A DNA stretch of 64,000 nt, taken from assembly GCA_903813345.2 (NCBI GenBank), contig CAIIXF020000003.1, forward strand, positions 9,750,218-9,814,217. The letters run 5' to 3'. The position numbers were made by a program, and so were the translations under genes. Positions 3,301-60,505 of this stretch are shown one piece after another (position 1 is the first letter of the stretch; every line of letters starts with the position of its first letter). Source of the DNA: Owenia fusiformis (lineage: Eukaryota > Annelida > Polychaeta > Sabellida > Oweniidae). The notes below the pieces were generated by a model. It had not been told where the DNA came from. It searched no databases and saw nothing but the letters and a program-made list of their open reading frames with translations.

Positions 3301-6300
3301 TATTGCTAACTATTGCCGACAATGATGGTTTTGTGTTAAAGTTTTATTATGTTCTATTAAATGTCTTTATTCTTTCAGGTTACAGAACAGAGGTCTGTAC
3401 GGTCGAATAGCCAAGAAAAAGCCTAATACTTCCCCCATCATACGACAACGACGATTGGAATGGGCAAATGTTGTCCGGCTTTGGGATGTCAATACTCATT
3501 GGTCTAAAGTAGTTTTTTTCGGATGAAACGAAATACAATATTGGAGAAACTGATGGCAGGACGATTGTGTGGCGCACAAATGCTGAGAAGTACAATCCAG
3601 AGTGCCTTGACATGGGACGAACTGTAACACGTGGTGGTCTCATGTTTTGGGGGTGTCTCGGGTATCATGGTGTTGGGGAGCTAGTCACGGCCCCTGGAGT
3701 CATCACGGGAGGGGTATATAGAGATATTTTGCAGGATAACCTTCTACCATCCATTGAACAGATATTCGGTGACAGAGAGCAGCGCTACGTCTTTCAACAG
3801 GACAACGCTCCCGTTCATACTGCAAATCAAGTTGAAGAGTGGTTCTTTCAAAGCGGCGTTAACAAAATGAGATGGCCTGCATATTCCCCAGACCAATCAC
3901 TTATTGAAAATATGTGGCATTATATTGATCGCCAGATACAGAATCTCCAAATTAACAACCTCCGCGAGCTGGAAATCGCCGTTCATAGAGCATGGGTTCA
4001 AATCCCTGGGCAGTACATCAGGAGACTCTTTGAAAGCATGCCCAGAAGAGTTCGTGCCCTTATCCTTAGTCGTAGTTATCCCACTAGATATGATTATCAA
4101 CTTGTTGACTTTATATTAGAATCACTTTTATAACATTTCTGCTTATTTAAAGTATGTTTACACCACGAGCGCAATTTCATGTTAAATAATGACAGAGTTT
4201 CATATTTTGCCTGTTTACGGCACAGTTAAGCATATAAAATGTAATATGATAATGGACAATAAAACAAAGCGACATGGCAATCATAAATTTAATATGTTAT
4301 TTTTTATGTTTGCAAAACTCGCGAAGCTATGATCGTGCACTTTCAGCACAAAAAAGCAACAAAAGATTAAGCCTTAATTACAATTCCAACGCTAAGTAAA
4401 GATTGTTGAACATCAGACAAATATAATGCCAAGATTTCATGACTTTACATAATATATTAGTGAAACTATATGGCAAAACGTTCTCTTAAAATTTCCAATT
4501 TGAAATGTTGTTCACACAAAAATCTAAAAAGGTTGCCAAACTCATGGAGGGGAGTGTATATATATGATTATCCTTTGACAAGTGTGGTTTCAGGTACACA
4601 ACACCGGGATATAGAATTGATATCTTGGAGAAGTGCGACATTTTTTCTCATTGGATAAGAACCAATCACATGATTAAAAATATTTGGGTTTATTATTTCG
4701 ATGCTGTGATACTCGTTCTCACATTGGTCAATAAGATACCACGTGGCTAAAATATATAGAGGTATTCCATGTCTCCCTGCTTAGAAAAACGTGTGAATAG
4801 TGTATTCACCGACAGTGACGTCACTTTAATATTGTGTGCTACTATAAGGGGGAAATAATATAACAAATATCGAATTCTGTGATTGTTTAATATATTCTGT
4901 ATATATTTCTGAGGGATGTTTATTCACCTCGGCCTTCGGTCTGCAGTGAATGCACCCTCAGAAACATATACAGATATTCAACTCCAGTAAATTCAGTATT
5001 TCATTGTTTCCAGCCTCGTTTTCAACTGTATGTACCATGGGGTAATCATGATATGTATGAGTGTCTGTAATACCAGTTCTTCATTGTTACAGATATAAAC
5101 GAGTGTGAGCCTAATCCCTGTCAGAATGAGGGCACTTGTGTTGACAAAGTGAACACCTATACGTGTAATTGCAAGGCTGGTTATGCTGGAATCAATTGTC
5201 AGACAGGTAACATTTTTTACCCGATATTCCATTGAAATTATTTACAGGAAAGAATATGAATGTCCCTTATTGTTCCCCACACTTATTGACAGAGACGATA
5301 CATACTATTGGATTTGCTTGCGTGTACCTGAATCTGGTACTTCAATACTGATACATGAATGTCCCTAATACTAGTTTACAGTTAACATTTACAGTAATAA
5401 ACCAGTGTGAGCCAAACCCGTGTCAGAACGAGGGCACTTGTGTTGACAAAGTGGACAGCTATACGTGTAATTGCATAGCTGGATATACTGGAATCAATTG
5501 TCAGACAGGTATATATATTTATATTTATAGGATATCCTATGATTTTGAGGAATATTATTTTTATCTATGAGGTGATATTGATATCTGCACGAGAGAGCAA
5601 AGCGAACGAGTGCTCATATCAATAATACCTATGATTTTGAAGAATATCATTTTTATCTACGAGGTGACATTGATATCTGCATGAGAGAGCAAAGCGAACG
5701 GGTGCACATATCAATATCACCGAGTAGATTAAAATTATATTCTGAAAAAATCATAGAATGTTCTTATAATCCTCCACTTACTTGTAGTGCACTAAATTTA
5801 TGATATCATTGAATATTAAATTTTATGTCAAATAGTTCAATTTGGTGGGAAATCAACATGCGCAATATATCGTCACAATATCCTCTGCATATTGGTTTTC
5901 CGGAGTATATCGTCACAATATCAACTGTATATTGGTTTTCCGGAGTATATCGTTGCGATCTCCTCCAGATATTCATTTTGCCCATTGATATCAAATTTAT
6001 TTTTTAATGTTATTATACATTCAGTTCACTAAGTGTAAGATAATATCGGAATATCCTATGTGTTTTCAAAAATATCATTTATTATATCATTGAATCGATA
6101 TGAATATCTTCATGAAAGAGCGCACGATTGTCTGTTTATCACATGGGAAATTATTTTCAGCAAAAAAGTAATTTAGGAAGCGAAGTCGAAAGAAAGCAAA
6201 GGGTAATATTTTATCGTTGTTTTCCAAATTACCTTAATTTGTTTTACACGATATGTCATTCCTTATTTTACAGAAATGTAGAAAAACGTCCCTAACAGTC

Positions 6301-28144: not shown

Positions 28145-29350
28145 CTACTTTGATTCAGTTGTTTTAAGAACACTTAATCCAAAATTGTCAGAATCTTTCT
28201 GCACAGGTTTATTGTAAAACTTTGAGAATGTACTACTGGAAGACCAACCTGCTGCCTTAAGAATAACATCTAGCCCAACACCTGCATTTAGTGCTGCTGA
28301 AGTAGACGCAGAGCGTGTGGAATGAGATTTAAAGATATCGACATTAATTCCAGCATTTTTGATAGTGAGTTTGATCCACCTACTGATGGTGTCAAGAGAT
28401 ACAGCTGCATAAGGTTTCTGAAAACTAATGAGTAGCTGACTTTGGTTACCTTTTAGAGTGTCCGTGCGATAAATATAGTCTTTCAAAGCCGCACATACAC
28501 ATAATTTCACATTGCTATATCTTGGTAAAGTGAGAATTGGTAAAGATTTTCCACATTTTGATGTTTTTAAACACTGTGAAATAATAAGTTTATAACCTGA
28601 GTGTTCTTCGATGCAATTCTCAACTGTCAATGTATGCAAAGTTTGACGACGTTGACCTGTAATTAACGCCAGAAGTGTCACTACTTTAAGTGTAAGCTCC
28701 TTTAAGGATAAACGTTCATTGGGATAAAATGTCTCGAGATAGTTTAACACTACTGATACATCCCATGTTGATTCATATTTTGGTAACGGAGGTCTGTCGT
28801 TGAACACACCCTTCATAAACCTAGAAACCAAAGGGTGATTCCCAAAAGAAACAGAGTCTTGTGATATAATGAATGACAACGCTGACCTGGCCGTATTAAT
28901 AGCACTGTAGCTTAAATCGTCCTTGTAAAGAGACGTGAGGAAAACAAGTCCTATGTTCACAGATGATTGAAATGGATCAATTTTCCGTCTATAACAGAAG
29001 TGTACCCACTTACGTAAGTAGACAGCATATTGCTTTTTGGATGCAGATCGCCAAGATAATAAGATGACTTCGGTAGTGTCTTTCGAAATTCCCTGGATTT
29101 CGATGGATCGCCGGATAAAAGACATGCAGTCAAAGTCATCTTTCTCCAAAGAGGATGGCGTTTCTGTTTGTCGTACGGTAGTTACAATAACGTTCTCCTT
29201 TTGGGTAATATCACTGGGATATCGATCAAGAGTCTCAGAAGTTTCGGCCACCATGGCTGTGTTGTCCACACTGGTGCTATTACAATGGCATTGGTTATGG
29301 CATCGTGTTCGATCTTCTTTAGAACCCTCGTGATCAAACTGAAAGGACAA
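28145..29350 (-). CDS. DIRS tyrosine recombinase, 401 aa
   Basis: Catalytic residues of the tyrosine recombinase fold are present: R234 in LITGQRRQTL, H343-x-x-R346 in KSHSTRS, W369 in AAGWSS and the nucleophile Y379 in SKFYNKP. Residues about 90-190 form the SAM-like core-binding domain. The start overlaps the end of the RT ORF (29182-29350) in another frame, as is usual in DIRS elements; the real start could be an internal ATG. Reading frame intact. Confidence 0.82.
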   Translation of the reverse strand: MSFQFDHEGSKEDRTRCHNQCHCNSTSVDNTAMVAETSETLDRYPSDITQKENVIVTTVRQTETPSSLEKDDFDCMSFIRRSIEIQGISKDTTEVILLSWRSASKKQYAVYLRKWVHFCYRRKIDPFQSSVNIGLVFLTSLYKDDLSYSAINTARSALSFIISQDSVSFGNHPLVSRFMKGVFNDRPPLPKYESTWDVSVVLNYLETFYPNERLSLKELTLKVVTLLALITGQRRQTLHTLTVENCIEEHSGYKLIISQCLKTSKCGKSLPILTLPRYSNVKLCVCAALKDYIYRTDTLKGNQSQLLISFQKPYAAVSLDTISRWIKLTIKNAGINVDIFKSHSTRSASTSAALNAGVGLDVILKAAGWSSSSTFSKFYNKPVQKDSDNFGLSVLKTTESK

Positions 29351-30974
29351 AACACATACAAAGTTTCATCATTCCACTTGATATTCAATGCATCGATATT
29401 TTCAGCAACTGGATCAGGTTTCCAGGACACATAACGTGGGAGCTGATGGTTCAATCTTGAAGCGAACATATCAATTACGGGAGATGGCCAATCAGACAGA
29501 TTAATCAGTTGATTGAACACTGTTTTGTCGAGCATCCACTCTGTTTCATCATGGAGCACTCGAGATTCCTCATCAGCGTCAGTGTTCTCAGAACCTGGAA
29601 TAAATGCTGCTGAAAGCCAGATATTTCTGAAAATGCAGAATTTCCAAATATCTTTTGCTAGGTTATCACAAGCAATCGATGTGATACCTCCCATTTTGTT
29701 AACGTAAGCCAAAACCGTAGTGTTATCCGTTTCAACACGTACGTGGATGTGTGAATTTTCTCTACAAAAACATTTCAATGCAAGATATATGGCCATTAAT
29801 TCTAGAAAATTGATATGATTGGAAGCTTCTTCAGCTGACCAACGTCCACCTGTTCTAACAGAATTGGTAACACATATTGCACCCCAACCTCTTGTGCTGC
29901 TGTCTGTTCGTAACAGCATATCTGGATCTGTAACAGAAATTGGTTTAACGGATTTCGCTACATTATTAATCCACCATTGTAGGTCGGATTTTGCATCATT
30001 TGATAATTGCATGCATGCATCAAAGTTGCCTTCATTGATAGATAAAGCCTTTGTTTTATCTCTCTCAAGATTTCTATAATGAAGCTGGCCATATTGAACA
30101 CCTGGTAGAGATGATACTAATTTACCAATGATTTGTGCTACATCCCTAATTGTGCAGTTGCTACGAGACAATAATGATTTACACATAGATTTCACAACTT
30201 GTGCTTTATCACCAGGAAGTTTCACAGTCATATTGATACTATTAAGTTCGAAACCAAGAAAAGTTATTACCTGTGTTGGTGTCAAGATAACCTTTTCTGG
30301 ATGAACTATGAAGCCAAGTGTTCTGAGCAAATTGATTGTGTCATAAGTGTTCTGCTTACACTGCTCAGAGGTTTCTGCAAATAGACAGCAATCGTCAATA
30401 TATGCTACCGATAGATGACCTTCATTTCGCAATTTAGCAAAAACAGGTTTCATAATTTTGGTGTATAGTCTGGGGGCCGAAGATAACCCTTGAGCTAGAC
30501 AAGTATATTGATATAGTTGGCCCTTCCATTCAAATTGCAGAAATCTTTGAGAATCAGTAGCAATTGGCACACTATAGTAAGCGTCTTTAATGTCGACACA
30601 ACTCATGTACATATTAGGTGACACGATGTTGAGGGCATGTTGAAGATTTTCCATCTTGAAATGATGATATTCTACACTCTGATTTAAATCAGATAAGTTT
30701 AAAAATCATTCTTTTTGACCCGTCTTTTTTTGGGTAACAGGAAAATAGGTGACACGTGACCTTTTTTAGAATCATCAATTGGTACAATGATACCCTTTTT
30801 TGCAAATTTGGCAATTTCTAGATCCATGCTTTCATGATCTGACCTAGAGTAATTTGTGTTACATGGCCATTGCATTTGTTGAATATCATCATCACAAAAT
30901 TCAATCGTGTAACCACCGATAGCATCTAATATAGACTGATCTGATGTTATACGTTCCCATTCATGCAAGAACAT
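29182..30974 (-). pseudogene. DIRS reverse transcriptase-RNase H with C-terminal methylase-like domain, two frameshifts
   Basis: Upstream frame (30974 to 30699) covers RT motifs up to FLLPKK. The downstream frame (30654 to 29182) has DIKDAYYSVPI, QGLSSAP, the active site YIDD, and RNase H (LRTDSSTRGWG, FLELMAIYLAL, VETDNTTVLAYV). It ends with the region MFASRLNHQLPRYVSW...FCPFSLITRVL, which lies where DIRS elements have their methyltransferase-like domain. Extra bases in the A/T runs at 30725-30731 and about 30701-30705 break the frame between the RT fingers and palm. Coding sequence may begin upstream near 31066, overlapping Gag. Confidence 0.8.
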
Positions 30975-31069
30975 TTTAAGTCGACCACCTTGAAAATAAT
31001 TGACAGAGTTTTTAAGGGTTTGTCTTACCTTTTCAGGTGCAGTGTCTATTGTAATAGTGTCAACATGAC

Positions 31070-32428
31070 CTATTGATTGGTGGTTTTCTCGCTGGCATTG
31101 CTGGACTTGCTCTTGGCCCCTCTCCCTCTCTTGTTGGGATATCGGGTAGAGTTCCGCTGGTGGTTGTTTCTGCCGTAGCCCTGGCCTAAAAAATGGTTGT
31201 TGGAATTGTTTCCACGACCACGTCCACCGTAACCACGTCCCCTTCCTCGATTACCCCGAGTGGAAGACGGAAAAACGCCTCGCAGTTGCGTTTTATTCAT
31301 TTCTGCTATCTCTTTCACCTGTTTAGAGATGTCGTCTCCAAAGAGAAACTGGGTAATTGGCACAGATTTGGCGCACAAATGCTTGAAATTTTGATTAATT
31401 TCATGTTTGAAAAGTTCACGTCTACGCATGTTCAGTTTCATGTTTGCATAACTGCTGAATAGCATATTTTCGTACACTAATTCCGCGATGGTAGTAAGCA
31501 CATCATCATAAGCATCGGATTTTTTGCTAAGAGTCTCTTTGAGATTATCCAGTGCTTCCAATGCACGTGAAGAAGCAATTATACCCTTCACAAGGGGAGT
31601 TTGCACTTTTTGATATTTAATATCATTAGAGCGAACTTCGGCTGAGACCCGAGTCCAAATAGGTTCATTGACCTTTGTAGTGCACAATAATGGAACGTTT
31701 TCAGGCGTCTTGTGACCATCTATTTTAGATACGATATCGTCCTCCTCTGGCTTCGCCTGGATTAGTTCTGTGACGATTTCAGCCATAGCTTCAGATAAAG
31801 GAGGTCCATTATCGTCTTGTAACTTGGCCTTAGATCGAAGTTTATTCATAAGGGAAGAAAAAACTTCAGTCGATTCGGACGAGGAAGTTTTCTGCTTTTT
31901 AGCAGGTGGTTCAAGGACGTCAGGATCCTCATCCTGTTGATCAGGAATATCACCATAATCATCATATTGGCCAGCTTGGTAGTCGGTTTTCAAAGATTGC
32001 TTTATATCACCTAAAGCTTCGACCATAGTATCTTTGATACATCCCAATCCCGTGCTAATAGCATTTGTAATATCCTGTACAAAGCTCACGGGGATACCAG
32101 ATTCATTGTTCGTGGATTTACAAGGCTCACTTTCCATTGAAGAGGCAGTGGCTTCAGATGTCAAGCTTGGCGACTTCATAGTGACCGACTTGTCGGAACT
32201 TTTAGCTTTTACAGAGCTGGACTTCTTTGAAGATTTTGTCTTTGTTCCACTTTCCAAATCTTCTTGAAAGGAAGGTTTAGACTTTGATGCTTGTGACATG
32301 TTCGATTGCGTACAATTTACACAGACTAACTCTGAATGCATGAACTGATTGCTACTGAGCAGAACTGCTATTGAGCAGTTGAACGTGTCAATGATATTGC
32401 ACGTGTTTTTGTACTCAGAATTGTACAA
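31070..32428 (-). CDS. DIRS Gag-like protein
   Basis: Open for 452 codons; a likelier start is the ATG at 32299 (MSQASKSK), giving about 409 aa. Middle part is acidic and S/T-rich with PPAKKQK, a possible nuclear signal. The C-terminus is rich in RG/GRG and N (about 31110-31270) and probably binds nucleic acid in place of a CCHC knuckle. Position as first ORF supports the call. Confidence 0.65.
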   Translation of the reverse strand: MYNSEYKNTCNIIDTFNCSIAVLLSSNQFMHSELVCVNCTQSNMSQASKSKPSFQEDLESGTKTKSSKKSSSVKAKSSDKSVTMKSPSLTSEATASSMESEPCKSTNNESGIPVSFVQDITNAISTGLGCIKDTMVEALGDIKQSLKTDYQAGQYDDYGDIPDQQDEDPDVLEPPAKKQKTSSSESTEVFSSLMNKLRSKAKLQDDNGPPLSEAMAEIVTELIQAKPEEDDIVSKIDGHKTPENVPLLCTTKVNEPIWTRVSAEVRSNDIKYQKVQTPLVKGIIASSRALEALDNLKETLSKKSDAYDDVLTTIAELVYENMLFSSYANMKLNMRRRELFKHEINQNFKHLCAKSVPITQFLFGDDISKQVKEIAEMNKTQLRGVFPSSTRGNRGRGRGYGGRGRGNNSNNHFLGQGYGRNNHQRNSTRYPNKRGRGAKSKSSNASEKTTNQ

Positions 32429-40114: not shown

Positions 40115-43100
40115 TTTGGCAACTTCCACGTTTACCCCCCCCCCCGTAATCATTTTTGCGCCCCCTCTAAATATCAAACCAATCAGGCGATGAGGCATGG
40201 ATCAGGATACCCTGACTCCCAAGCTGTGCGACTTCTGGCAACCGCTACACCTATATTCCCGGGGGAAATGCTTTTTCTTTTGAAAAATTATCAAATATGG
40301 TCGTGTGTGGGCAAACACGGAGGAGGAGGAGAGGGGTGCGTGCATTGCGTGCGATCCCTCATCAGTTGTGTACCTTATTTTTGTATGAATTTCTCCCGAA
40401 CAGTTATGCTAGAGGGGTTATAATATTTATTTCTGTTTTCAAATGAAATAATTTCACCCTTGCCCGATTGGCTATAATGCACATCAAATAGCATGGAGAT
40501 CAGATAATTAGATTGATTCGTTTTTTCACAATCAGATGAATTAACTTATTGTTTTCTCTGATTAAAAGGCGGTTTGAAGCTACTTTTATAGGATTTGTAA
40601 ATTCGCAATCAGACTGGCTTATTTTATTATTTAGTCAGTGCAAGAGGAGGGGACTATAATGTAGAAAATCGTTTTGATTTCGACACTAACTGAAATAATT
40701 TATCACAATAAATTGTTAAATACGGAAACAGAGACCGGTTTAAAAATGAAAAGAGAGGCAAAAAACTCTATTCATACCATGTAATTAAAACCCGGGAATT
40801 AAAAGCAATTTTAGACTGTTAGATCTTCTGTAATCAAGGTGATGTTGGTACACTTCCACCGTTAGAAAAACAAAGACTAAGACAAAGACTATATAGCAAT
40901 TAATCCTTTTGTAATCATTAAATGTTAAATGTAGATTCTTATTAGTTTCGTTGGACAATGTTCAGACTTCTGACCAAGATTTATTCATTTATGTTTGTAT
41001 TTAAAAAATAGTATTTCAATCAGACAGACGTTCTAATGAGTTAGAAAAATACATTTGACCATCACCTCTCAAGACGTTTTCAAAAGTAATCAAGTCGATT
41101 TGTTTATTTTAGTGTTTAGCATTGTTTTTCATAACTTGATGCTTCCATGAACAGAATGACTTTGAAATGAGTATTTATAATTTTAGCTTTTATACGACAT
41201 GCTTATTGTATATTTCTATATGAACGTTGTAGTTATGTGATGTAACATCGCCCCCCCCCAAATTACAGGTATACAACTTTTGGTCGGAATACTTTAACTT
41301 GCGATTAAAAGCAATTTTAGACTGTTAGATGATCTCTTATGTAATCTAGGTGATGTTGGTAGACTTCCGCAGTTAAGAAAACAAAGACTAAGACAAAGAG
41401 AACTATATAGCAATTAATCCTTTTGTTATCACTAAATGTTAGATTCTTTATTGGACAATATTTTGACTTCTGTCTCCGATTGTTATGCAGATATATGTAT
41501 ATAATCATGTGAACAACATATTACTTGGAAATTCCCATATTCATTCTCATAATGTCTTACAGCTATTTCGCAAATGACATGCATGTAAGCCTAAATAACA
41601 TGTGGACGTAATATTGCAGAACTGAGCGAAAAGAAAGGTTGAACAAATTAGATTAAGATGTTTTATTTTTTAAATGCACAAAGGGCAACAGTTGAAGAGC
41701 AAAAATTAAAGGCGTTGTGAAATAGATCGTGCTTTTGTATGATCCTCTTCTATAGTGCCCTACCCTTTGCATTCGTTCGACTTCACTTCTTAAAAGAGAG
41801 TTTCGTCTTCTCGTAGTATATAACTAGACTCTGCACGTAGCGTAATAGTGCCCCTATAAGCCATGTACAGGGGGGGGGGTGCGATTGCCCAAAAAACAAT
41901 ATCGGATTTCAGTCTGAGACAAATGGTCAAACATGAGTTTCAAAAAACTTCTAGAATTACCTTATGTAAATATTTACGTTAGCTTGTTTAATTAAGGTCT
42001 GACGTTATGAAAACAAAGTGCCATTAATTTCTGAACCGTATAATACAGTATCATCTGTTTGGTCTCGGTATATTCCAGTTTAATTTGTATTATACAAAAA
42101 ATGATATGTATAATTTGTATTATACCACTTTGAAACCTGTTATAATAGAAAATGATATGCGTATAATACTGTTTAATCTGATCCTGACTTAAATTATATC
42201 AGGTTAAACTGGAATATATTTTGGTTTAATCGGGTATCATTCTCTAATGATATTTGAGTCCGGATCAGATGTTATAATATTGAATGATACTTTCTGTGAT
42301 ATTGGATTAAACAACAAATTAAACATCAATATAAGATGTTATCACAAGTATTAATCATAGGATTTTACACAGTGACAGCGACTGTGAAAGGTGTTTCCAT
42401 TAAAAGTATTCAACTTACGACGTATATAGGTCTTCGACCTTCAAATGTATTTGAGTTATAGAAGTATAAACAATGTTCCCACTGACCAGGTGCTAAGATT
42501 TACCAGTCAATTGGCCACAGCGACTGTGTAAGGTGTTCCCATACAAAGGTATTCAACTTACAGAGGTGTTCCACTATAAAAGGTATTTAACTTATAGAAG
42601 TATTCTACTTGGTTTTACTCTTTCACAAATTCTCTTATACAATTCACATCGACATTCTTTTTAATCAAGTCGATGAAAACCGAAATCTATTTTAAGATTG
42701 ATTTCGTACACATTTCAATTGTGTTGGGCATATGGACTTCCTCGTGTTACATATGTACGACGGTCTTTAGGCTTAAGACTATCATTGTTTATGCGCTTGG
42801 ATAATTGTTTTCCATTCTACGTTGGCCTACAATTAGACATACTGTATGTGGATATCCAAATTCAGACAAACGCCATGCGAAACCACATTTAGGCATAAAA
42901 TATGCGTAACCACATTTAGGCATAAAATATGCGTAGCTACATTTTATCAAATGAAATGCATGACCACAGCTTGGCAAATAAAATGTGCAATCACATTACT
43001 GATAATACGTGTACCAAACTTAGGCAGATAATGAGAGTAGCCACAGCTAGACTCGCATAAGTAGAATGAGATTAAGACCCGCATACCATGTGTAACCACA

Positions 43101-43465
43101 TTAAGGAACATCTCCCCAAACATAGGGCCATATCCACATACAGTACGCACAGTTAGGCACGCATCAAAAAGTGTATGGGCATTTCCTTCTGCTGATCTTG
43201 TACACGATATAAAACCAAATACGTGTAGTTTCCATACGTTTAGGCACATGCATATTTAGGTATATGTATCCACGATAAGCTTCCACATTTTGGCATTTCC
43301 AATATCTTGTGTGACAATATCCAGATAGGTACAGCTAGCTATCCAATATTTTTCATATCCAGTATCCATTTTGATTAGTCTCGCTGTCAAGGAAACCATA
43401 TTTAGGTATACGTACTGCAACTGATCCGCTTTTCTAAAGGCACATACTCGTCGTCACCTCCAAAT
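40115..43465. repeat. intergenic stretch with direct duplications
   Basis: A block at about 40802-40940 (GCAATTTTAGACTGTTAGAT onward) is repeated at 41311-41460 with small indels. Imperfect repeats of a unit near 28-30 bp containing AACCACATTTAGGCATAAAAT run through 42879-43035. A pair of similar segments (GGTGTTCCCAT, ATTCAACTTAC) lies at 42385-42600. No exons recognised. Confidence 0.5.
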
Positions 43466-43742
43466 CTAAGCAATCGGGTCCATGTATTTCAAGCAAATCT
43501 GTTCTAAGTCTGTGCATGTCGTTAATATCTGCTTGGCTAATATCTGGACTTGCTCGAAACAGGCCTTATAATCAAGCCTAGCTAGTTCGGGTTGTAGGTG
43601 TATCAGTATGTTTCCTTCCGATAGGTGCCACTGCTCCGCTACTTTCAGAGTTGCTATGGCAATCACTGATGGAGGATGCTGGGTAATATTGTAGTCAGTT
43701 ATTGTGAGTTCCAGGATAAATCGTGCAATACCTTGAACTTGT
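43466..43742 (-). CDS. CCNO-like: cyclin exon 6 (stop)
   Basis: Acceptor TATTTCCAG|ACAAG completes an arginine codon with exon 5 and continues QVQGIARFILEL. Contains the rest of the C box and ends KYMDPIA. Confidence 0.82.
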
Positions 43743-46700
43743 CTGGAAATAGATAAGGTACTCAATTGGATCATTTTAAAATTTTGTAAATACTGTGATG
43801 CCTGGGTCACATTTACTCAGATTCATCGGCCGGCGCCCGGCAGATTGAGTATTTTGTTCAAAATTGCATTCGGTTTTGAACAAAATACTCAATTGGCCGG
43901 GCGCCGTAGTGAAAATCGGAGCAAAAGTGACCAAGGCATAACCACACACCTCCGATATCCGACGCAAAAGAGTAAAGAAAATACTTCTTGAATAAAGAAC
44001 ATTTTAGCAGTGCAAATATTGCGACACCATCGATCTCTTATGAAGCATTTCTTGGGCAGAATTTCTGTATTAACTCGAATCATTGAGTTACTTATGGTAT
44101 CTAATATTAACATCTGAATACTTTTTAAATCAAAACCTTTCCAATAAAGACCTATTTCGCCTGCTGAAAGTGTATAGTCGCACATTAGGGAGTTTAAGCT
44201 TGCATATAAAATCAAAACGCCAACCTATACGTATGACCAACCGCCCATACAAATGCATCGCTTGAATATCTTCCCTTCACGTTTAGGTTGTGAAAAACAC
44301 TGCAAGCTTAAACTCCCTAATATTTCATTTTTACCTTATGCCGATGGAATAGCATGCCGTGATCAGATCATCTACCAATGTTTTTACCTGAATAAGTTCA
44401 GTTTTGTTGGTGTCTCCTCATCATGGCAACAATTTAGTTGTCGCATTTGTAATGTACAATAATGCTCTAAGAAATAGTTGGATGTTGGGACGTTAAAGTC
44501 AAATCGAAGCTTCTGAAAGTAATAAAAAACATTAGCTAATGAGTGATATAAATAAAGATGGCAGTGTATTTAATATAGCCTATGAAAATATTTTACAATT
44601 CCATTTCTGCTGCCATCTTTATAATCTACGAATTCCAAAGTTGTAATAACAAAATTGGACACAAATGCTTATTTTTCTGTCCTGCTACAGCGTAGTGTGT
44701 CACCCGTGAAGAGCTTTGCGGAAACCAGTCGAAAGTGTCTAAATATTTATTTCACCAGCAATCAGACCTTGTGAATCAAGATAATCTTTATTTGAAATAC
44801 AAGAAACTGCAGATGGACTTTTGGAAAAATAAGTATGGTAAATACCAGTGTAAGCAAAATGGAAACAATACAATTACAACGAAAAGGACTCTCAACTGGT
44901 ATCTGGTTTGCTCCGAATTTTATAATTGCTTCGTGATGCTTTATACTGCAGATTAAAATGGAATATTTTTACCTGTAAAATAATGGCCTCCATCTGTATA
45001 AGTTGGTTATATGTGTAAGTGTGACACGTATAGTAGAGTAGGTCAGTCACCTCCGGCACAGAGATCTCTTCCTAAAATACAGTAGGAACTTTTAGCTATG
45101 TAATGGATACATGTGTAAGTGTGACACGTATAGTAGAGTAAGTCTGTCACCTCCGGCACAGAGATCTCTTCCTGAAATACAGTAGGAACTTTTAGCTATG
45201 TAATGGATACATGTGTAAGTGTGACACGTATAGTAGAGTAAGTCTGTCACCTCCGGCACAGAGATCTCTTCCTAAAATACAGTAGGAACTTTTAACTAAG
45301 TAATGGATACATGTGTAAGTGTGACATGTAAAGTAGAGTAAGAGTGGGGGCATGGGACCCCTTAGTGGGGCCTCACTAAAATGGGCCTTTTGTGGCATAA
45401 TTTGGGCTTTTTTGACAAATTTAACAAAAAAAAACCTTAAGTTTTCAAAATTTGGACCCGATTTTTGGTTTTAGTGGCTCACATTTTTCCAGACTCAAAA
45501 TTTGGATCTCCACCCTTGTCAATTTCTGGATCCGCCACTGACATGGGCAAGTGTGACGCTCTCATCCAAACTTAATTTGTACGTGCACGTGAACTTTGTA
45601 GAAGTATGGTCATCCCGGTGTAGAAGGGTAGGTGGTCCTATCAAATTTTGGTCCTACTCTCTATTGATTTATATGGTGACCTAAATACAATTATTTTCCT
45701 TATTATTTATACACAGTCAGGGCCAGTAAGGGCCTTAAGGAAAGGGGACCATATTCCCCAGGGGACCATAATTTCTTTTACACCGGGATTAGTTCTTCGT
45801 AGGACTGGATTGTTGACTCACTCATTTGGGGATAAAGTTACAATGAAAGTAGATGTTATCCATTGAAAAACAATTAATAGTGGAACATTTATTCGTGGGG
45901 TCATAATAGTATACGTCCACGTTCAGCTTCATTTTTAAAGGAATAGCTTAAACTCCCTTATAATTATACCTGTCACGTAACTGTTCCACGTGTAAATAAA
46001 CAAAAATCGCCAGCCCTGATATATATAAGGCTGTTGCCATAGCGATCCATCTACACCCATACCGACACCAGTCAATCTTTCCAATCCCGCAGGCGGGGAA
46101 TGCGATTGTCACCCCAGGTATTAACGCAAACAAGGCTATTACGATAAGAAACCCAGCAAAGTTCCCCAATTCTTGCTTTAAAGTTTCCATGTCCAAATAT
46201 TTAAATTAAAAGGAATATCCTAATATGACCACCTATATCGAGCTCCGTTTCTATTGAAATCAAGCTCTGCTCGTGAAATTAAAAGTTTTATTCCATGGTT
46301 GCAAGGATATAGATCGAATATCACATGAAGATATATTTGATATGTGGATCAAGATATCATATTTTAGCAAAAAATTCACAAACCATCGAATATCACTTTT
46401 AAACTATCGAATATCACGTCTTAGAAAGTGATATTCGATGGTTTGAAAAGTGATATTCGATGGTTTGAAAAGTGATATTCGATGGTTTCGAATTTTTTCA
46501 AATTTTTTTTTGCATTTTTTAATTATTTTCAAAAATATTTCAAAAAAATTCAAAATTTCAAAAATAATTTCAACATTTTTTCACATTTTTTTCAATTTTT
46601 TTTCATTTTTTCAAAATTTTTCTCAAATTATATTTTTCAACTTTTTTCGCTGATGATGATTTTCCATGGGATAAACGGACAATCCTATTGTTTTTCAAAA

Positions 46701-49700
46701 ATATCAATTATATCCACTCATGGATACAAATATCTTCACTCATTCGCTGCGCTCACTCATGAAGATATCAATATCCATTCATGGATATAAATGATATTTT
46801 TTCAAAACCATAGGATATTCCTATAATATCCACTATTAATTCTTTCCATTATTGACTCTCCCCAAACTCCTTGAAGTTTTGAGGCGCTGTACCCTCTAAG
46901 ATAAGCTAAGGCAACAGCTGTCATTCACAGTTTATTCTACGAAAATCAATTCCCTCCAAGATAACTTTTTCCAAGATAATCATGTATATTAACGTGATTA
47001 TGATGATTTCTCCAAGATATCATCTAATCCAAGATAAATTTTCTCCAAGATTTATAATTCACAGTATTAATTTTCCAAAGATTAATATCCGTTTAGGTGA
47101 CTTTTTCCAAGACTTCACCAGGATAAAACTCTTATCCAAGATTGATTCTGGCGAAGATTAATTGCACCCCGTATAGTTTCTCCCTGGAATTAATCCTTTG
47201 AAGATTAGTAGTTTGTATTTAATTGTCCTGCTGTGTTCAAAGTATAACATATTCTGAATTATTCAAGACTAAATCGAACTGTAGGACATGCAATTTCAGA
47301 GTGCACTTTGCTTTAAGTGTCACTGTAGAAATGTATAGGGTTCACTCGCCCCTTTTCAAAGATCAGATCATTGTTATACTTGACCAGTGTTTGCAGTTTT
47401 GTGTATTTAGTAAAGTAAAATCAAATACTTGTAGCGTTGTAAATGTTTGCTACCAAGGGATTAAAAACTTCAAACATGCCATCGCATTCCAGAACAATCG
47501 ACATCACAGTGAACAACCACATGAAATGAAACACGTTTAAAAACTAAATGCGATCAAATAGAGTTATATCATACAATGGGAAATGATGTCATAACTGAAT
47601 TGTAGGTTTGTTCTGCTTTGTTTAGTTAACATAACATTAATAATATTATAATTGCATATTTGCTTTTAAGATACTCACTAGTTTTGTAGCGATTAAATAT
47701 GCAGAAACTCCTAATAGCTGAAACACATTTATAGTAATGTTTGTTTGGGCCAGGAATCTGTCAATGATGTTCACAGTCAGAAAGATCGTATCAGAACTAT
47801 AGTTGCACTGATGGTGGACTTTACACAGCCATGTGATTAACTGGTCTCTCATTTCCGGTTGTATCTAAAAGGAAGATCGCACCATGACTATAATTACACT
47901 GATGGTGGACTTTACACAGCCATGTGATTAACTGGTCTCTCATCTCCGGTTGTATCTAAGAGGAAGATCGCACCATGACTATAATTACACTGATGGTGGA
48001 CTTCACACAGCCATGTGATTAACTGGTCCCTCATCTCCGGTTGTATCTAAAAGGAAGATCGCACCATGACTATAATTACACTAATGGTGGACTTTACACA
48101 ACCATGTGATTAACTGGTCTCTCATCTCCGGTTGTATCTAAAAGGAAGATCGCACCATGACTATAATTACACTGATGGTGGACTTTACACAGCCATGTGA
48201 TTAACTGGTCCCTCATCTCCGGTTGTATCTAAAAGGAAGATCGCACCATGACTATAAATACACTGATGGTGGACTTTACACAGCCATGTGATTAACTGGT
48301 CCCTCATCTCCGGTTGTATCTAAAAGGAAGATCGCACCATGACTATAAATACACTGATGGTGGACTTTACACAGCCATGTGATTAACTGGTCCCTCATCT
48401 CAGGTTGTATCTAAAAGGAAGATCGCACCATGACTATAATTACACTGATGGTGGACTTTACACAGCCATGTGATTAACTGGTCTCTCATGTCCGGTTGTA
48501 TCTAAAAGGAAGATCGCACCATGACTATAATTACACTGATGGTGGACTTTACACAACCATGTGATTAACTGGTCTCTCATCTCCGGTTGTATCTAAAAGG
48601 AAGATCGCACCATGACTATAATTACACCAATGGTGGACTTTACACAGCCATGTGATTAACTGGTCTCTCATCTCCGGTTGTATCTAAAAGGAAGATCGCA
48701 CCATGACTATAATTACACCAATGGTGGACTTTACACAACCATGTGATTAACTGGTCTCTCATCTCCGGTTGTATCTAAAAGGAAGATCGCACCATGACTA
48801 TAATTACACTGATGGTGGACTTTACACAGCCATGTGATTAACTGGTCTCTCATCTCCGGTTGTATCTAAAAGGAAGATCGCACCATGACTATAATTACAC
48901 TGATGGTGGACTTTACACAGCCATGTGATTAACTGGTCTCTCATCTCCGGTTGTATCTAAAAGGAAGATCGCACCATGACTATAAGTACACTTATTGTGG
49001 ACTTAACACGTTTATTTAAGCCTTGTATCAAATCCGACTGAAAAAAGACATTGTTTGCTTACAAAAAAAATAGTTTGTGTATTATTAATAAACTTGAATA
49101 AATTAAGTTGAATCATAAGTTACTTCTTACAATTAAATAGAAAGGATTAAGGTTTTGGTAAAATAAGTGATTTTTAAATCAATTCCTAATACAGATCTTA
49201 CCTACAATGTAAAATATGTAAATGTAAAATCAAAATTATCAGGAACAAATTTGGCAAATAAAACTGAAGTTTAAGCATAGCAGATCATAGTATAGCATCG
49301 CTTAGCACGGCCTAGCGTAGCATAGCCTAGCATCACGTCGCATAGCATTGCTTAGCATGGCATAGCGTAGCATAGCATAGCATCTCGTCGCATAACATCG
49401 CTTAGCATGGCATAGCGTAGCAAAACATAGCATATCATTTCTAAATACTATACTTAAATTAAATTACACCTACTCACATCTTTCTGATTTTCCAAGCAAG
49501 CTTTAGGATGATATATCTTCTCCAACGACTTCTTGTAGTTATACGTGTCTATAAGGTATGGAGATAGGGGATCTATATAGGGGATTTTTGGGATTTGCCT
49601 GGGTGTCGTTACATGATGTACCTTCTGAAAAAGGAAGTATTGTCATAAAGTATCAGAATAAGGGTGTTTTCATGAAGAGAGCCAAGGGGATTATTTCATA

Positions 49701-50593
49701 AATTATTCAAAACGTTAAATCGTAAATAATGCATTAAGGGAAAATCTGAAATATAAACTATTTGAATAAGAGACCATCTCGTTAAAGGAACATTTTGAAG
49801 CACTGGTTGAACACAATTTACAATCTCAGCCCAATATACACCAATGGGGCAAGATCCCACTTTCCCCATCGAGTCCCATCTTGCCACATCGAATCCGAAC
49901 TTGCCCCATCGAATCCCACGAAGTCAAATGGGACCTTGATGACTTTGCCCCATCGTGCCCAATGGAGTCCCATCGAGCTCCATGGAGTCCCATCAAATCC
50001 CAACGTGCCCCTTTGGTGTATGTTAGGCATCACACAACACGTCATATGATCGAAAATCATGGAAAGAATGAATATGTTCATTCTCTATGGGGCATGATTG
50101 GACTCACTAGGATTTTACCCCACCGAGTCCAACTTGGGACCTCATGGGACTCGATGGGGCAAGATGAGGCAAAACCCGACGAAGTTTCGGAGTCCCACGG
50201 ACTCCATGGGGCAAAATCCCAAGAAGTCCCACAAGGTCCAAAGCAATATTAAATATGGAGGTCCTAACTTGCCGTAGTGGTGTATACCGGGCTTCAAATG
50301 CTTAACAACATTAAAGCAGTAATTTCCTTAAAACCATTAAATGCAATAACATAGATATTGAAAAACTATAGATAATCATGACTTACTATAAATGATGGTA
50401 CCATTTCAGAGTTGCATGTAGGTGTTGGAGATACATCCGTAGTTTCCATGGAAGCCTCGTTGCCTAGCAACGAGTCATTTTCGGGAGTCTTTGGTAAATC
50501 TTCTTCGAATATTGGTGATAACGGCTGTTTATGATCGCAGAATGACATGTCACTGTCGGCTGAACTGTAACCCTGGTCTTGGTAGACATCCAT
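43466..50593 (-). CDS. CCNO-like: cyclin, cyclin O/P-like, six exons, complete
   Basis: Six exons join in frame (207+147+186+99+125+277 nt = 346 codons plus stop). All introns are GT-AG. The N-terminal 95 residues are acidic and S/T/P-rich. The cyclin N box follows (MRDQLITWL, FLTVNIIDRFL, FQLLGVSAYLIATKLEE), then the C box (LRFDFNVPTSNYFLEHYC ... VQGIARFILELTITDY, HPPSVIAIATL). The FQLLGV, FLEHY and SLEKIYHP-type features and the length near 350 aa fit cyclin O (required for centriole amplification in multiciliated cells), with cyclin P as alternative. Classical cyclin A/B motifs such as MRAILVDWL are diverged. RFX X-box motifs lie at the 5' end. Confidence 0.85.
43798..43939. mobile_element. 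palindromic MITE, GCCTGGGTCACA ends, copy A
   Basis: Ends ATGCCTGGGTCACATTTACT and its near complement; inner arms pair through GAGTATTTTGTTCAAAA. Same family at 53902-54041 and 54208-54384. Lies 56 bp upstream of cyclin exon 6. Confidence 0.65.
44186..44320. mobile_element. small MITE, TTAGGGAGTTTAAGC ends
   Basis: Inverted ends TTAGGGAGTTTAAGCTTGCA / TGCAAGCTTAAACTCCCTAA, 135 bp. In intron 5 of the cyclin gene. A single end of this family also appears at about 45940-45956. Confidence 0.6.
44388..44512 (-). CDS. CCNO-like: cyclin exon 5
   Basis: Acceptor CTTTCAG|AAGC, donor TTCAG|GTAAAA, 41 codons plus two bases. Encodes KLRFDFNVPTSNYFLEHYC, the linker into the C box. Confidence 0.82.
44973..45071 (-). 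CDS. CCNO-like: cyclin exon 4
   Basis: Acceptor ATTTTAG|GAAGAG, donor CAG|GTAAAA, 33 codons. Encodes EEISVPEVTDLLYYTCHTY then NQLIQMEAIILQ, helices 4-5 of the N box. Short enough to be missed by ORF finders. The first 60 nt plus acceptor are repeated upstream with a 100-bp period. Confidence 0.82.
45011..45341 (-). repeat. 100-bp tandem array derived from cyclin exon 4
   Basis: Exact 100-bp steps (45011, 45111, 45211, partial 45311). Each full unit holds on the - strand the pyrimidine tract, AG and the first about 60 coding bases of exon 4. Only the unit nearest 44973 continues into the exon's donor; the two other full units lack it. Confidence 0.85.
45342..45947. other. cyclin intron 3 sequence
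   Basis: Noncoding. The stretch ending TTTCTGGATCCGCCACTGA at 45541 resembles one terminus of a hAT-type small element; a related sequence (GGCGGATCTGGG, TTTCTGGATCTG) occurs near 18474-18596. No matching partner end identified. Confidence 0.35.
45948..46196 (-). CDS. hypothetical 82-aa membrane protein ORF in the cyclin intron
   Basis: ATG at 46196, short amphipathic start (MDMETLKQELGN), two hydrophobic segments (about residues 14-34 and 50-67), three cysteines between (PACGIGKIDWCRYGC), charged end (EQLRDRY). The composition is that of a real two-pass protein rather than random frame, but I recognise no family and its last codons run into a MITE-like end (45940-45956). It may be an exon of a nested or decayed gene. 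Confidence 0.35.
   Translation of the reverse strand: MDMETLKQELGNFAGFLIVIALFALIPGVTIAFPACGIGKIDWCRYGCRWIAMATALYISGLAIFVYLHVEQLRDRYNYKGV
46381..46490. repeat. 22-bp tandem and inverted repeat
   Basis: GTGATATTCGATGGTTTGAAAA occurs three times in tandem (46427-46490) and twice inverted just before (46381-46420), so the block folds into a hairpin. It is followed by a T/A-rich low-complexity run to about 46640 and a palindromic CACTCATGGATA block to 46815. Confidence 0.6.
46860..47215. repeat. interspersed CCAAGAT motif cluster
   Basis: The motif TCCAAGAT or close variants (CTAAGAT, CCAAAGAT, CGAAGAT) recurs more than ten times at irregular 15-35 bp spacing. No coding frame. Not a standard satellite because spacing and flanks vary. 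Confidence 0.45.
47679..47864 (-). CDS. CCNO-like: cyclin exon 3 (core of N box)
   Basis: Acceptor CCTTTTAG|ATACAA, donor CTA|GTGAGT, 62 codons, phase 0. Encodes IQPEMRDQLITWLCKVHH through AYLIATKL. Its 5' 69 nt plus the acceptor are the source, or a member, of the 91-bp array just upstream. Confidence 0.85.
47881..48972 (-). repeat. 91-bp tandem array derived from cyclin exon 3
   Basis: Twelve units in exact 91-bp steps, then a partial one to about 49004. Each unit on the - strand holds GATCTTCCTTTTAG followed by bases encoding IQPEMRDQLITWLCKVHHQCNYS, with acceptor positions at 47955 + 91n up to 48956. None has a splice donor. It precedes the true exon 3 acceptor (47864) in transcription order. 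Confidence 0.9.
49287..49437. repeat. TAGCA-type minisatellite
   Basis: Degenerate pentamers AGCAT/AGCGT with a higher-order unit of about 60 bp (CGCATAGCATTGCTTAGCATG). Lies in intron 2 of the cyclin gene, 41 bp before exon 2's donor side. Confidence 0.6.
49478..49624 (-). CDS. CCNO-like: cyclin exon 2
   Basis: Acceptor CTTTTTCAG|AAGG, donor GAT|GTGAGT, 49 codons, phase 0. Encodes the linker and first helix (YNYKKSLEKIYHPKACLE). Confidence 0.8.
49830..50289. mobile_element. fold-back element rich in CCCATCGAGTCCCAT
   Basis: Ends ATACACCAATGGGGCAAG and CTTGCCGTAGTGGTGTATA are inverted. The interior is built of short permutations of CCCAT, CGAGTC and TTGCCCCAT on both strands. Frames on both strands (49795-50252) are repeats, not genes. 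Lies in intron 1 of the cyclin gene. Confidence 0.5.
50387..50593 (-). CDS. CCNO-like: cyclin exon 1 (start codon)
   Basis: ATG at 50593; 69 codons; donor ATA|GTAAGT, phase 0. Low-complexity acidic head (SADSDMSF, PIFEEDLPKTPENDS) with possible proline-directed phosphorylation sites (LSP, KTP, VSPTP). Contains an X-box on its DNA (50459-50471). Confidence 0.8.
50459..50471. promoter_or_regulatory. X-box motif (RFX site) in cyclin exon 1
   Basis: GTTGCCTAGCAAC fits GTNRCC-N-RGYAAC, the binding site of RFX factors that switch on ciliary genes. It lies inside coding sequence, 122-134 bp after the ATG. Confidence 0.5.
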
Positions 50594-50924
50594 TGTTACT
50601 ATGTTTTGTCTGTTCCTATGGCGATTTTGTTTTTATTGTTGCTGTCCTTGCTTAAGCAATATCGTTATGGTGATCATCAACCGGGTAACATTATTTTGTA
50701 CATTCCTTGATGATGTTTTTATGATAGGCTTTGATTGAATAGATATTGTTGCTAAAATTGCTAAACTTGCTAAACTTATTTTGGTGCGGTAACATTAATT
50801 TAGTTGCTATTCTAAGTTATTTTTGTTGCTTTGACCTCACTGTCCTGATTTGGTGATCCCAATTACTAGTTTGTTGCTATAATCTCCTGAGATGCGTCAC
50901 TGCGTCTACGCTGGTCCCTCTTGT

Positions 50925-50938
50925 GTTGCTATGGTAAC
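50925..50938. promoter_or_regulatory. X-box-like motif upstream of the cyclin gene
   Basis: GTTGCTATGGTAAC, a 14-mer near-palindrome with one mismatch to the X-box consensus, about 335 bp before the ATG. A weaker one, GTAACTAAGGTAAC, follows at 50951-50964. Confidence 0.5.
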
Positions 50939-50964
50939 ACAACTGCTGGTGTAACTAAGGTAAC

Positions 50965-52436
50965 ATTAGTGCGATGATTCTAGCATGCAGGCCTACAAAT
51001 ATAAACATGTCATCAAACTTCCATAATTTTTTTGAACACCATATCTTTTTTATATATAATAGCCTGTATTCAAAGTAGTTCCGCACCTTTAGAAGAAAAA
51101 TTGAAAAAATGTCATTCTGATATTTAGTCAAAATGTACTGATAATTTACATATTACACTCCCCTTTAAAAGTTTAGCAACCAGAATTAAATCGAAAGCAT
51201 ATCGAAACCGGAATCTTAGTTATGTTCCTTGATAACAATAATTTAGAAAGTATGACAAATTTGATGAGTTTTAAATCGCCAAACATTAACTGTGTTTGAT
51301 GAATGACAAAAAGGGGGACTTCCAGTTGGCCAAACTTATTGAGGGGTGTTGCAATATTCTACCGTGAAGTGTAAAAATCGTCCAAAATATGAGGAATGTC
51401 ACCTATTTTTTCTCTTTTGGTAATTATAGTCGTGAACATGCATTAAATATTGAACTTTCTTGTCATGTATATCTAACGATCACATTTTATTCATTCAGAG
51501 TTTGAGGTGAAATAAGCATTCTCTTTGATCTTGAACTCTTGAAAACTACACTCGCAAAAAGGATTTCCTTACATGTATATTATGATGCCAAATCGGTGCT
51601 GGCATATTCATATCTATGAATCAAGGACCTCATAGAAAAGGATGCTACAGTATAATGAAAAATAAAAAAATTCCATTTTACCTGGATCTTTCTGTGTTTT
51701 TATATCCCAAACAAATTGTAACTTGGCCGCACTGAGGAAATGTCAGCAGTGTCCTGTTTCTTGAACTCAAAGATGTCCAGTGCATTTGACTTGATACTTA
51801 CATTTATTTAGGGGTGTGAGGATGGGAAATTAGGTCCAACTCAAGGTAATTACAGGTTTAAATTTGTATTTTGACCGTGTAACCCCATTGGCTCGTTTTC
51901 TCAGTTTGTTTTGTATTTTAAAGTGCAAGGTCAATTTCTAGTCGTAGTATATTCGTATGTAATAAATGTGATAACAGTTTCAAGGTGAGATTTCTCCCAA
52001 GTAGACCTTTGCGGCTGAATAGCTTAATTCTTCATAGGGAAACAATAAGGTGAGTACCTACATGTATTGTACTGAATATGGTCAACCCCAAAAATTGCAA
52101 TCATGAGGAACGCATATATGTGCTTATAATTATGCAGTTTTCTCGAAAATTAATGATACTTTTTGTATGGGTCTTGTTTTCAAATTCTATATTCCGTCTC
52201 TATTCTCAGTTAATATAAAAATACGAAATAACTTTCTTATAAATACAAAGATAAAATACATCATATTTGTTCAGATTTGTTCAAATTAGTTTAAATTTTA
52301 GGTGTTCATTTTAATTTTCCTCCGGTGTTGCCTTCTGCGCTTTGCAATTTCAAACAAGTTCAGGTGATTTAACGCGTGGGGACAAGTGACACAGAAAATC
52401 AAAGCAATAACAACATAGTATAACCAAATCATAATT
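50965..52436. other. region upstream of the cyclin gene
   Basis: AT-rich and mostly featureless. A likely small Tc1-type MITE spans about 51159-51349 (end ACACTCCCCTTTAAAAGTTT, other end CAAACTTATTGAGGGGTGTT reversed). No coding signal. Confidence 0.4.
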
Positions 52437-59350: not shown

Positions 59351-59705
59351 CTTAATTGAACAAACCATGCGCATGCATTATACTGGTTCTGAGGTTATAC
59401 ATATTCCGGGTAACAAGCTAGGTTAACTTCGCTTTAAATCTAATAAAAATGAAACAGACACTGCCTGTAATTGACGATTTTTGCTTCTTACTTACCATTC
59501 TTCTTTAATTTTCCTCAGATTCTACCAAACACTTAGCAAAGATGTAAATATAAGGAGAATTCTTACAGATAACTAAGACTTTCCATAGACCGCCTGTACA
59601 AATTCTAAAATGTTTCAGTCATTGACGTCATCGATTTAACTCATTTGCATACAGCCAATCAGCGCAGCGGAAATTATCGATTTTCTTGACTTTGTGGAAA
59701 GGTGA

Positions 59706-60505
59706 ATAGCATTCGAGTTAAGCATATTGCCCAACAAATTGTTCAGCATTGTAACATCTGGATCGGCATTCGAGTTAAGCATTTAAGAAATGTATACGCA
59801 TTGGATCTTTAATGGTTTACAATAGCATTCGAGTTAAGCATATTGCCCAACAAATTGTTCAGCATTGTAACATCTGGATCGGCATTCGAGTTAAGCATTT
59901 AAGAAATGTATACGCATTGGATCTTTAATGGTTTACAATAGCATTCGAGTTAAGCATATTGCCCAACAAATTGTTCAGCATTGTAACATATGGTTCGGCA
60001 TTCGAGTTAAGCATTTAAGAAATGTATACGCATTGGATCTTTAATGGTTTACAATAGCATTCGAGTAAAGCATATTGCCCAACAAATTGTTCAGCATTGT
60101 AACATATGGTTCGGCATTCGAGTTAAGCATTTAAGAAATGTATACGCATTGGATCTTTAATGGTTTACAATAGCATTCGAGTTAAGCATATTGCCCAACA
60201 AATTGTTCAGCATTGTAACATCTGGATCGGCATTCGAGTTAAGCATTTAAGAAATGTATACGCATTGGATCTTTAATGGTTTACAATAGCATTCGAGTTA
60301 AGCATATTGCCCAACAAATTGTTCAGCATTGTAACATATGGTTCGGCATTCGAGTTAAGCATTAATGTATACGCATTGTTCATCAATGGTTTACAACAGC
60401 ATTCGAGTTAATTAAGCATATTGCCCAACAAATTGTTCAGCATTGTAACATCTGGTTCGGCATTCGAGTTAAGCATTTTAAGAAATACATTGTTCAGCAT
60501 ATAAT
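59706..60505. repeat. 116-bp satellite array
   Basis: Unit starts at 59709, 59825, 59941, 60057, 60173 and 60289 (exact 116 bp), then one 110-bp unit at 60399. Each unit contains GCATTCGAGTTAAGCAT twice. Units differ at a few bases (ATCTGGATCGG / ATATGGTTCGG alternate). Copies are also present left of the transposon (54715-54804, 55262-55310). Confidence 0.88.

Follow-up and report, generated by a model that had tools for sequence, protein, structure and literature searches.

Tandem arrays carrying copies of splice sites in cyclin genes of Owenia fusiformis

The exon-3 acceptor of a cyclin gene in the marine annelid Owenia fusiformis is preceded, within intron 2, by twelve near-identical tandem copies of itself, each of which also carries the start of the exon. 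Such splice-site arrays number four in three of 12 cyclin loci (each locus read in part): two arrays of acceptors lie in the same gene, its closest paralogue carries an array of donors, and cyclin B3 has another array of acceptors. We consider it probable that tandem duplications over splice sites expanded here as minisatellites and are tolerated through exon definition. The window that was analysed, a stretch of 64,000 nucleotides, is C3:9750218-9814217 of the 498-Mb Owenia fusiformis assembly; positions given without a locus or chromosome are those of the window.

Two acceptor arrays in one cyclin gene

The gene lies on the minus strand (50593-43466) and has six exons, GT-AG boundaries in all five introns, and an unbroken 346-aa frame (Table 1). 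The earlier note had taken it for a cyclin with exon 3 as modelled here and had ended exon 2, with its donor, at 49478; both points stand. The six-exon model with the true exon-3 acceptor agrees at all 346 aa (100%) with an annotated, unnamed Owenia protein (P0001), and exon 3 alone scored 66.3 bits against Pfam Cyclin_N (cut-off 23, E 2.7e-18). Among the best 60 of 63 matches to solved chains, the nearest were cyclin A2 (the best solved relative, E 1.3e-10) and B1, while the other 20 database matches of the protein reached 27-41% identity over 39-70% of its length. Judging by sequence, we call the gene a putative divergent A/B-type cyclin. Introns 2 and 3 (1613 and 2607 nt) both exceed the exon-definition length of 250 nt. 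Intron 2 also contains, ahead of the acceptor array, a GCATA-type repeat of 10/15 bp (49274-49438), and intron 5 has two near-perfect inverted repeats (43831-43906 and 44184-44321), which we take to be MITE-like.

Table 1. Exons of the window cyclin gene and features of its two acceptor arrays
Feature	Position	Strand	Basis
Exon 1, coding part, 207 nt, donor ATA/GTAAGT	50387..50593	-	Model and identity to annotated P0001
Exon 2, 147 nt, donor GAT/GTGAGT	49478..49624	-	Model and annotated protein
Acceptor-like TTTTTTCAG, 5' of the exon-3 array	49038..49046	-	Candidate further decoy
Diverged partial copy, 5' edge of the exon-3 array	48965..49009	-	48-nt match 48962-49009, 77%
Twelve full 91-bp decoy units, polypyrimidine tract + AG + 69 exon bases	47873..48964	-	TRF and unit alignment
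True exon 3, 186 nt, 62 codons, phase 0, donor CTA/GTGAGT, cyclin box IQPEMRDQLITWL...	47679..47864	-	Model, Pfam, annotated protein
Exon-4 array, 100-bp units, acceptor + first ~61 exon-4 bases, two full decoys + partial copy	45072..45342	-	TRF
True exon 4, 99 nt	44973..45071	-	Model and annotated protein
Exon 5, 125 nt	44388..44512	-	Model and annotated protein
Exon 6 with stop, 277 nt	43466..43742	-	Model and annotated protein

TRF placed the exon-3 array at 47782-49009 (period 91, 13.5 copies, 96% matches, 0% indels, score 2253), the 13.5 copies being the 12 full decoy units, the true copy (47864) and the diverged partial copy at the upstream edge. The earlier note had described twelve tandem 91-bp copies of the tract, the AG and the first 69 exon-3 bases, which would present 12 decoy acceptors ahead of the true one at 47864. 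TRF and unit alignment confirmed this: decoy exons start at 47955+91n (n = 0 to 11), the AG is kept in 12 of 12, and the tracts are pyrimidines ending in TTAG. Between -60 and +20, each decoy shares 70-79 of 80 bases with the true site; between -25 and +3 eleven of them match it at 28 of 28 positions and the remaining one at 27 of 28, so the local acceptor sequence cannot tell the spliceosome which site is real. Over the first 69 exon-3 bases the units differ from the true copy at three positions, all synonymous; base +12 is an A in the true copy, a G in 11 decoys and a C in one (decoy 48501). The remaining 22 bases of the unit, set in register against exon bases 70-91, agree at 13 of 22, a match that is equalled at only 0.1% of positions on the minus strand of the window and is perhaps a trace of microhomology where the duplication occurred.

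The units vary among themselves at three synonymous and five non-synonymous sites, with a stop in one unit, and the sharing of variants between adjacent units gave no significant order of duplication (0.27 for this array, 0.075 for the donor array of the paralogue). When the array was searched as DNA against the 498-Mb assembly, at least one place was returned, the window itself, and with this single place nothing suggests a dispersed repeat. The acceptor-like TTTTTTCAG is a possible further decoy and perhaps a former acceptor; a whole extra copy of exon 3 following it, at 49010-49037, was rejected, as the likeness was no better than chance (p 0.11). We also rejected concealment of the decoys by RNA structure, since three stretches of the array were unremarkable and folded no better than most shuffles (z -0.4 to -1.3). 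An Rfam scan of the window at the gathering threshold gave no match.

Each unit holds 69 of the 186 exon bases and no good donor, and is thus not a copy of a whole exon. The earlier statement that the unit has no donor is right in the sense that its best GTs agree with the nine-position consensus at 6 of 9 positions, versus 7 of 9 in each of the five true donors. Equally, use of a decoy does disrupt the frame, as expected from a unit of 91 bp, which is not a multiple of three: a premature stop is met in all 12 cases when reading on to the true donor. With exon 2 joined to any of the decoys, translation would end at residue 137-163, the stop lying 142-1143 nt ahead of the next junction. A stop that far ahead of a junction is the layout expected to trigger nonsense-mediated decay.

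A second array, absent from the earlier note, lies at exon 4 (TRF: 45004-45342, 3.4 copies of 100 bp). Its decoy exons start at 45171 and 45271, both lead to a premature stop, and base +27 of the exon (T versus A) separates the true acceptor from the decoys. Exons 1, 2, 5 and 6, each searched with 30-nt flanks, had no second same-strand match at E 0.05 within 42500-51500.

Arrays at other cyclin loci and in the genome at large

A protein search of the assembly identified the closest paralogue on the same chromosome, 5 Mb away (locus L012). With its first donor, the paralogue's exon 3 is 186 nt long, and the encoded protein is 51% identical to that of exon 3 in the window cyclin. After this exon (L012:5534-6777) there are 13 donors, 12 of them CAC/GTAAGT and the last CAC/GTGAGT, in 96-bp units that consist of the last 87 exon bases plus the donor. 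The donor array is thus the mirror image of the acceptor array of the window cyclin. The units are open and their length is divisible by three, so that 13 of 13 donors keep the frame intact; splicing at donor n would lengthen the cyclin box by (n-1) x 32 residues, and reads across the exon 3/exon 4 junction would carry GGGAAACAC or GCGAAACAC before it. The model that uses the first of the 13 donors matches an annotated 394-aa Owenia protein without a difference. Four synonymous and five non-synonymous sites vary among the donor units.

The third gene is cyclin B3 on C4, identified by 63-69% identity to named mollusc and annelid B3 proteins; an annotated Owenia B3 was not recognisable among 120 listed of 2110 matches. 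Six decoy acceptors are found at L036:4757-5615 in 123-bp units, the last interval being 119. Five of the six meet a stop at codon 3, and all six meet a premature stop when read to the true donor. The decoy tract CCTGTTTTTAG appears no weaker than the true tract CCTGTTTGTAG.

A Cyclin_N profile search of the assembly gave 17 matches, which fall into 12 loci; 4.0-9.9 kb was read around each of the other 11. The search itself listed no decoys, family searches being insensitive to fragments. In the parts read of the other nine loci no splice-site array was seen; at L014, L035, L040 and L041 there are arrays more than 60 nt from a Cyclin_N match, the comparison covering recognised exons. The notion that only divergent cyclins have arrays is ruled out by cyclin B3. 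At one cyclin locus on C2, a 19-bp array of 9.6 copies (L042:1718-1902) starts just inside the intron, past the donor of the cyclin exon, and the donor itself is absent from the repeat unit. A kinase family search, in which 124 of 876 candidates were scored, gave 144 matches; among them we spotted by eye two neighbouring matches to the same profile segment, C10:2256896-2257045 and C10:2257074-2257205, possibly a duplicated part of an exon.

The Owenia genome is rich in minisatellites. A blind sample of 20 stretches of 10 kb (200 kb), searched by TRF for arrays with a period of at least 50 and at least 2.5 copies, yielded 12 TRF rows, or 11 distinct arrays, which cover 9172 of 200,000 bases (4.6%). 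In so array-rich a genome, arrays should frequently include a splice site by chance. The two sister genes together have ~18 splice sites, of which ~0.8 would be expected to be covered by arrays without selection; three were seen, which does not prove enrichment in cyclins. None of the arrays in the blind sample was shown to span a splice site, a weak test in which 7 of 79 nearby open reading frames, from 6 of the 10 array-bearing stretches, were scanned with Pfam; one array lay inside an open reading frame with a Nucleotid_trans domain.

The window contains other repeats as well. A 116-bp array at 59705-60486 (6.8 copies), with stops in all six frames, is apparently a non-coding minisatellite. 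At 509-1992, 340-bp tandem units (4.4 copies), whose consensus in our estimation reads like an EGF-type exon, look like an ordinary whole-exon duplication. Open reading frames at 28145-32428 (minus strand) presumably belong to a DIRS-type element with reverse transcriptase and tyrosine recombinase, and one at 3567-4133 (plus strand) is presumably a fragment of a Tc1/mariner transposase.

Choice among near-identical sites and origin of the arrays

The annotated proteins, together with the synonymous nature of the fixed differences, suggest that the copy contiguous with the remainder of the exon is probably the one used. Between the true copy and all its units, five of six fixed differences over three arrays are synonymous (expected fraction 0.23, P 0.003), and six of seven if cyclin B3 is included (P 0.0009, with the expected fraction taken from the first three arrays), in a small sample of seven changes chosen after the fact. 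The donor array has a single fixed change, which is non-synonymous, and the units themselves vary without regard to coding. According to the available part of its description, the Owenia annotation was built with STAR, Portcullis, Mikado, Augustus and PASA, and 99.29% of transcripts overall have RNA-seq support (PMC9977687). Such pipelines may favour clean open frames. The annotated choice is not proof of site use, and short reads that fall within the first 69 bases fit 13 places nearly equally well. In the annotated models of both sister genes the site nearest across the exon is chosen, that is, the last acceptor in the window cyclin and the first donor in the paralogue. Either choice makes the exon as short and the intron as long as the array allows, which goes against the classical intron-proximity rule and is the outcome predicted by exon definition. 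By annotation, the mRNA contains no new intron or exon, the annotated protein being that of the single-copy model.

If the arrays arose as we favour, by expansion of splice-site duplications, the presumed ancestral state would have been altered by a small tandem duplication over the 3' splice site of exon 3 (~22 intron and 69 exon bases), and the resulting minisatellite would then have grown to 12 full copies within intron 2. Such a duplication would be self-healing, because an intact acceptor and the whole exon stay downstream. With long flanking introns, the exon would be recognised as a unit and the last acceptor would still be spliced: under exon definition, the U2AF that wins would be the one bound where an acceptor lies closest, across the exon, to the donor occupied by U1. 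The decoys would be left in the intron, with some leaking into premature-stop mRNAs, and would be nearly neutral. The exon-4 array, the 13 donors of the sister gene and the acceptor array of cyclin B3 could have arisen in the same way; recurrence in another exon and in other genes suggests that array formation is a property of the genome and not of one gene.

Where flanking introns exceed 250 nt, sites nearest across the exon are preferred, and in minigenes with two identical CAG/guaagu donors the upstream one was used exclusively, according to the accessible text of Carranza, Shenasa and Hertel, 2022 (PMC9225289). For acceptors under exon definition, the same text describes the upstream preference as reduced and, in the portion available, does not say that it reverses (PMC9225289). 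With a preference that is merely reduced, decoys could be used often, which counts against our preferred explanation. Nor would neutrality be assured, if one may argue from the human ABCA7 array that is linked to altered expression.

A regulatory role specific to this gene, which the earlier note had raised, appears less likely than tolerated minisatellites, because other genes carry arrays and the genome is minisatellite-rich. Functional decoys would bind U2AF/U2 and send a fraction of the transcripts towards mRNAs with premature stops, thereby setting cyclin dosage, possibly in a stage-dependent way. Consistent with this, premature stops follow from all 12 exon-3, both exon-4 and all six B3 decoys, the decoy acceptors are as good as the true exon-3 site, three cyclin genes have arrays, and greater length of the splice-site VNTR in human ABCA7 goes with lower expression and more exon skipping (PMC5954066, available text). 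We nevertheless regard functional decoys as unlikely: the donor units of the paralogue give no premature stop (13 of 13 open), and the same logic fails there; nine of the 12 cyclin loci show no such array in the parts read; and arrays are common in the Owenia genome. It is a rather improbable speculation that the cyclin arrays (four, in three of 12 loci) act as adjustable brakes, in which the number of decoys would set the share of productive mRNA or, with the in-frame donor array, the share carrying extra 32-residue cyclin-box segments, and mutable length would make dosage quickly evolvable.

Regular use of the decoys as alternative exon starts, with the annotation in error, would fit a local acceptor sequence that is identical in 11 of 12 decoys and an intron-proximity rule that favours upstream acceptors in short introns (PMC9225289, available text). 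It is very improbable, however, given that the frame ends early in 12 of 12 cases and that the six-exon frame is an intact cyclin. The divergence of the window cyclin (27-41% identity over 39-70% of length in those other 20 matches) might speak for a gene in decay or under relaxed constraint, with arrays as harmless debris, yet the frames of both sister genes are unbroken in every exon and correspond to annotated proteins, and cyclin B3, at 63-69% identity to named B3 proteins, also has an array; we find decay doubtful at best. An artefact of assembly or polishing deserves mention, as the genome was assembled with CANU from PacBio Sequel reads and purged of haplotigs (PMC9977687, available part) and one copy of the array was returned from the assembly, leaving no second haplotype to compare. 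The array is, however, 1.2 kb long against a PacBio read N50 of 25.75-30.75 kb (same source). Moreover, the units carry distinct point variants, the four arrays have different unit lengths and lie in three genes, and the array flanks run cleanly into exons, making an artefact hard to credit.

Competition between splice sites of equal strength is usually studied in minigenes that carry two sites. The Owenia genes offer a natural test of how the spliceosome chooses, with 13 near-identical acceptors in the window cyclin, 13 donors in its sister and seven acceptors in cyclin B3. Developmental RNA-seq has been published for Owenia, and base +12 of exon 3 lets existing reads measure the choice. Should splicing pass over the decoys, exon definition would be highly robust for acceptors, for which the published data, in the part available, report merely a reduced upstream preference; if they are used, array length becomes a source of variation in the dosage of a cell-cycle gene. 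The arrays are also a warning for gene finders and read mappers, as exon starts within them map to many places.

Comparison with known systems

Mutually exclusive exon clusters of the Dscam type consist of tandem exon copies within a gene. The Owenia arrays likewise copy exon sequence in tandem inside a gene, but their units are exon fragments lacking a good donor and not alternative exons. Classic experiments on globin reportedly used duplicated splice sites. In intron gain by tandem duplication, for which the part of the literature available to us cites 24-bp AGGT repeats of fission yeast as an example, an intron/exon junction or exonic segment is duplicated in tandem and splicing absorbs the copies, as here. 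In that process, however, a new intron (with an inserted exon) arises, whereas the annotated Owenia mRNA gains neither and only intron 2 becomes longer. The minigenes of Carranza et al., as far as the accessible text describes them, share with our genes a competition between sites of equal strength in which the nearest across the exon wins when introns are long; they carried two donors in plasmids, as against 13 natural near-identical sites, acceptors as well as donors.

A splice-site-bearing VNTR is already known from human ABCA7. In the available text of that study (PMC5954066), the intron 18 VNTR has a 25-bp unit containing the donor of exon 18, and the first GT of the array serves as the canonical donor. 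A few mRNAs (2 ± 1%) are spliced at a later copy and retain one unit, and with greater VNTR length expression is lower and exon 19 is skipped more often. As in ABCA7, the unit contains the splice site of the adjoining exon in all four Owenia arrays. By contrast, the ABCA7 unit is intronic, 25 bp long and confined to the donor side, whereas the Owenia units are 91-123 bp long with ~60-87 coding bases and three of the four arrays are on the acceptor side. Copy-number variation and a correlation with expression are known in ABCA7, whereas the Owenia arrays were read from one assembly; the earlier note had conjectured that the exon-3 array may differ in copy number between individuals. The literature that we searched (titles and abstracts, with few subscription papers) contained no acceptor-side array, no units with 60-87 coding bases and no mirrored paralogue pair. 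What is new here, beside the human precedent, are the acceptor arrays, their presence in several genes and the mirrored paralogue.
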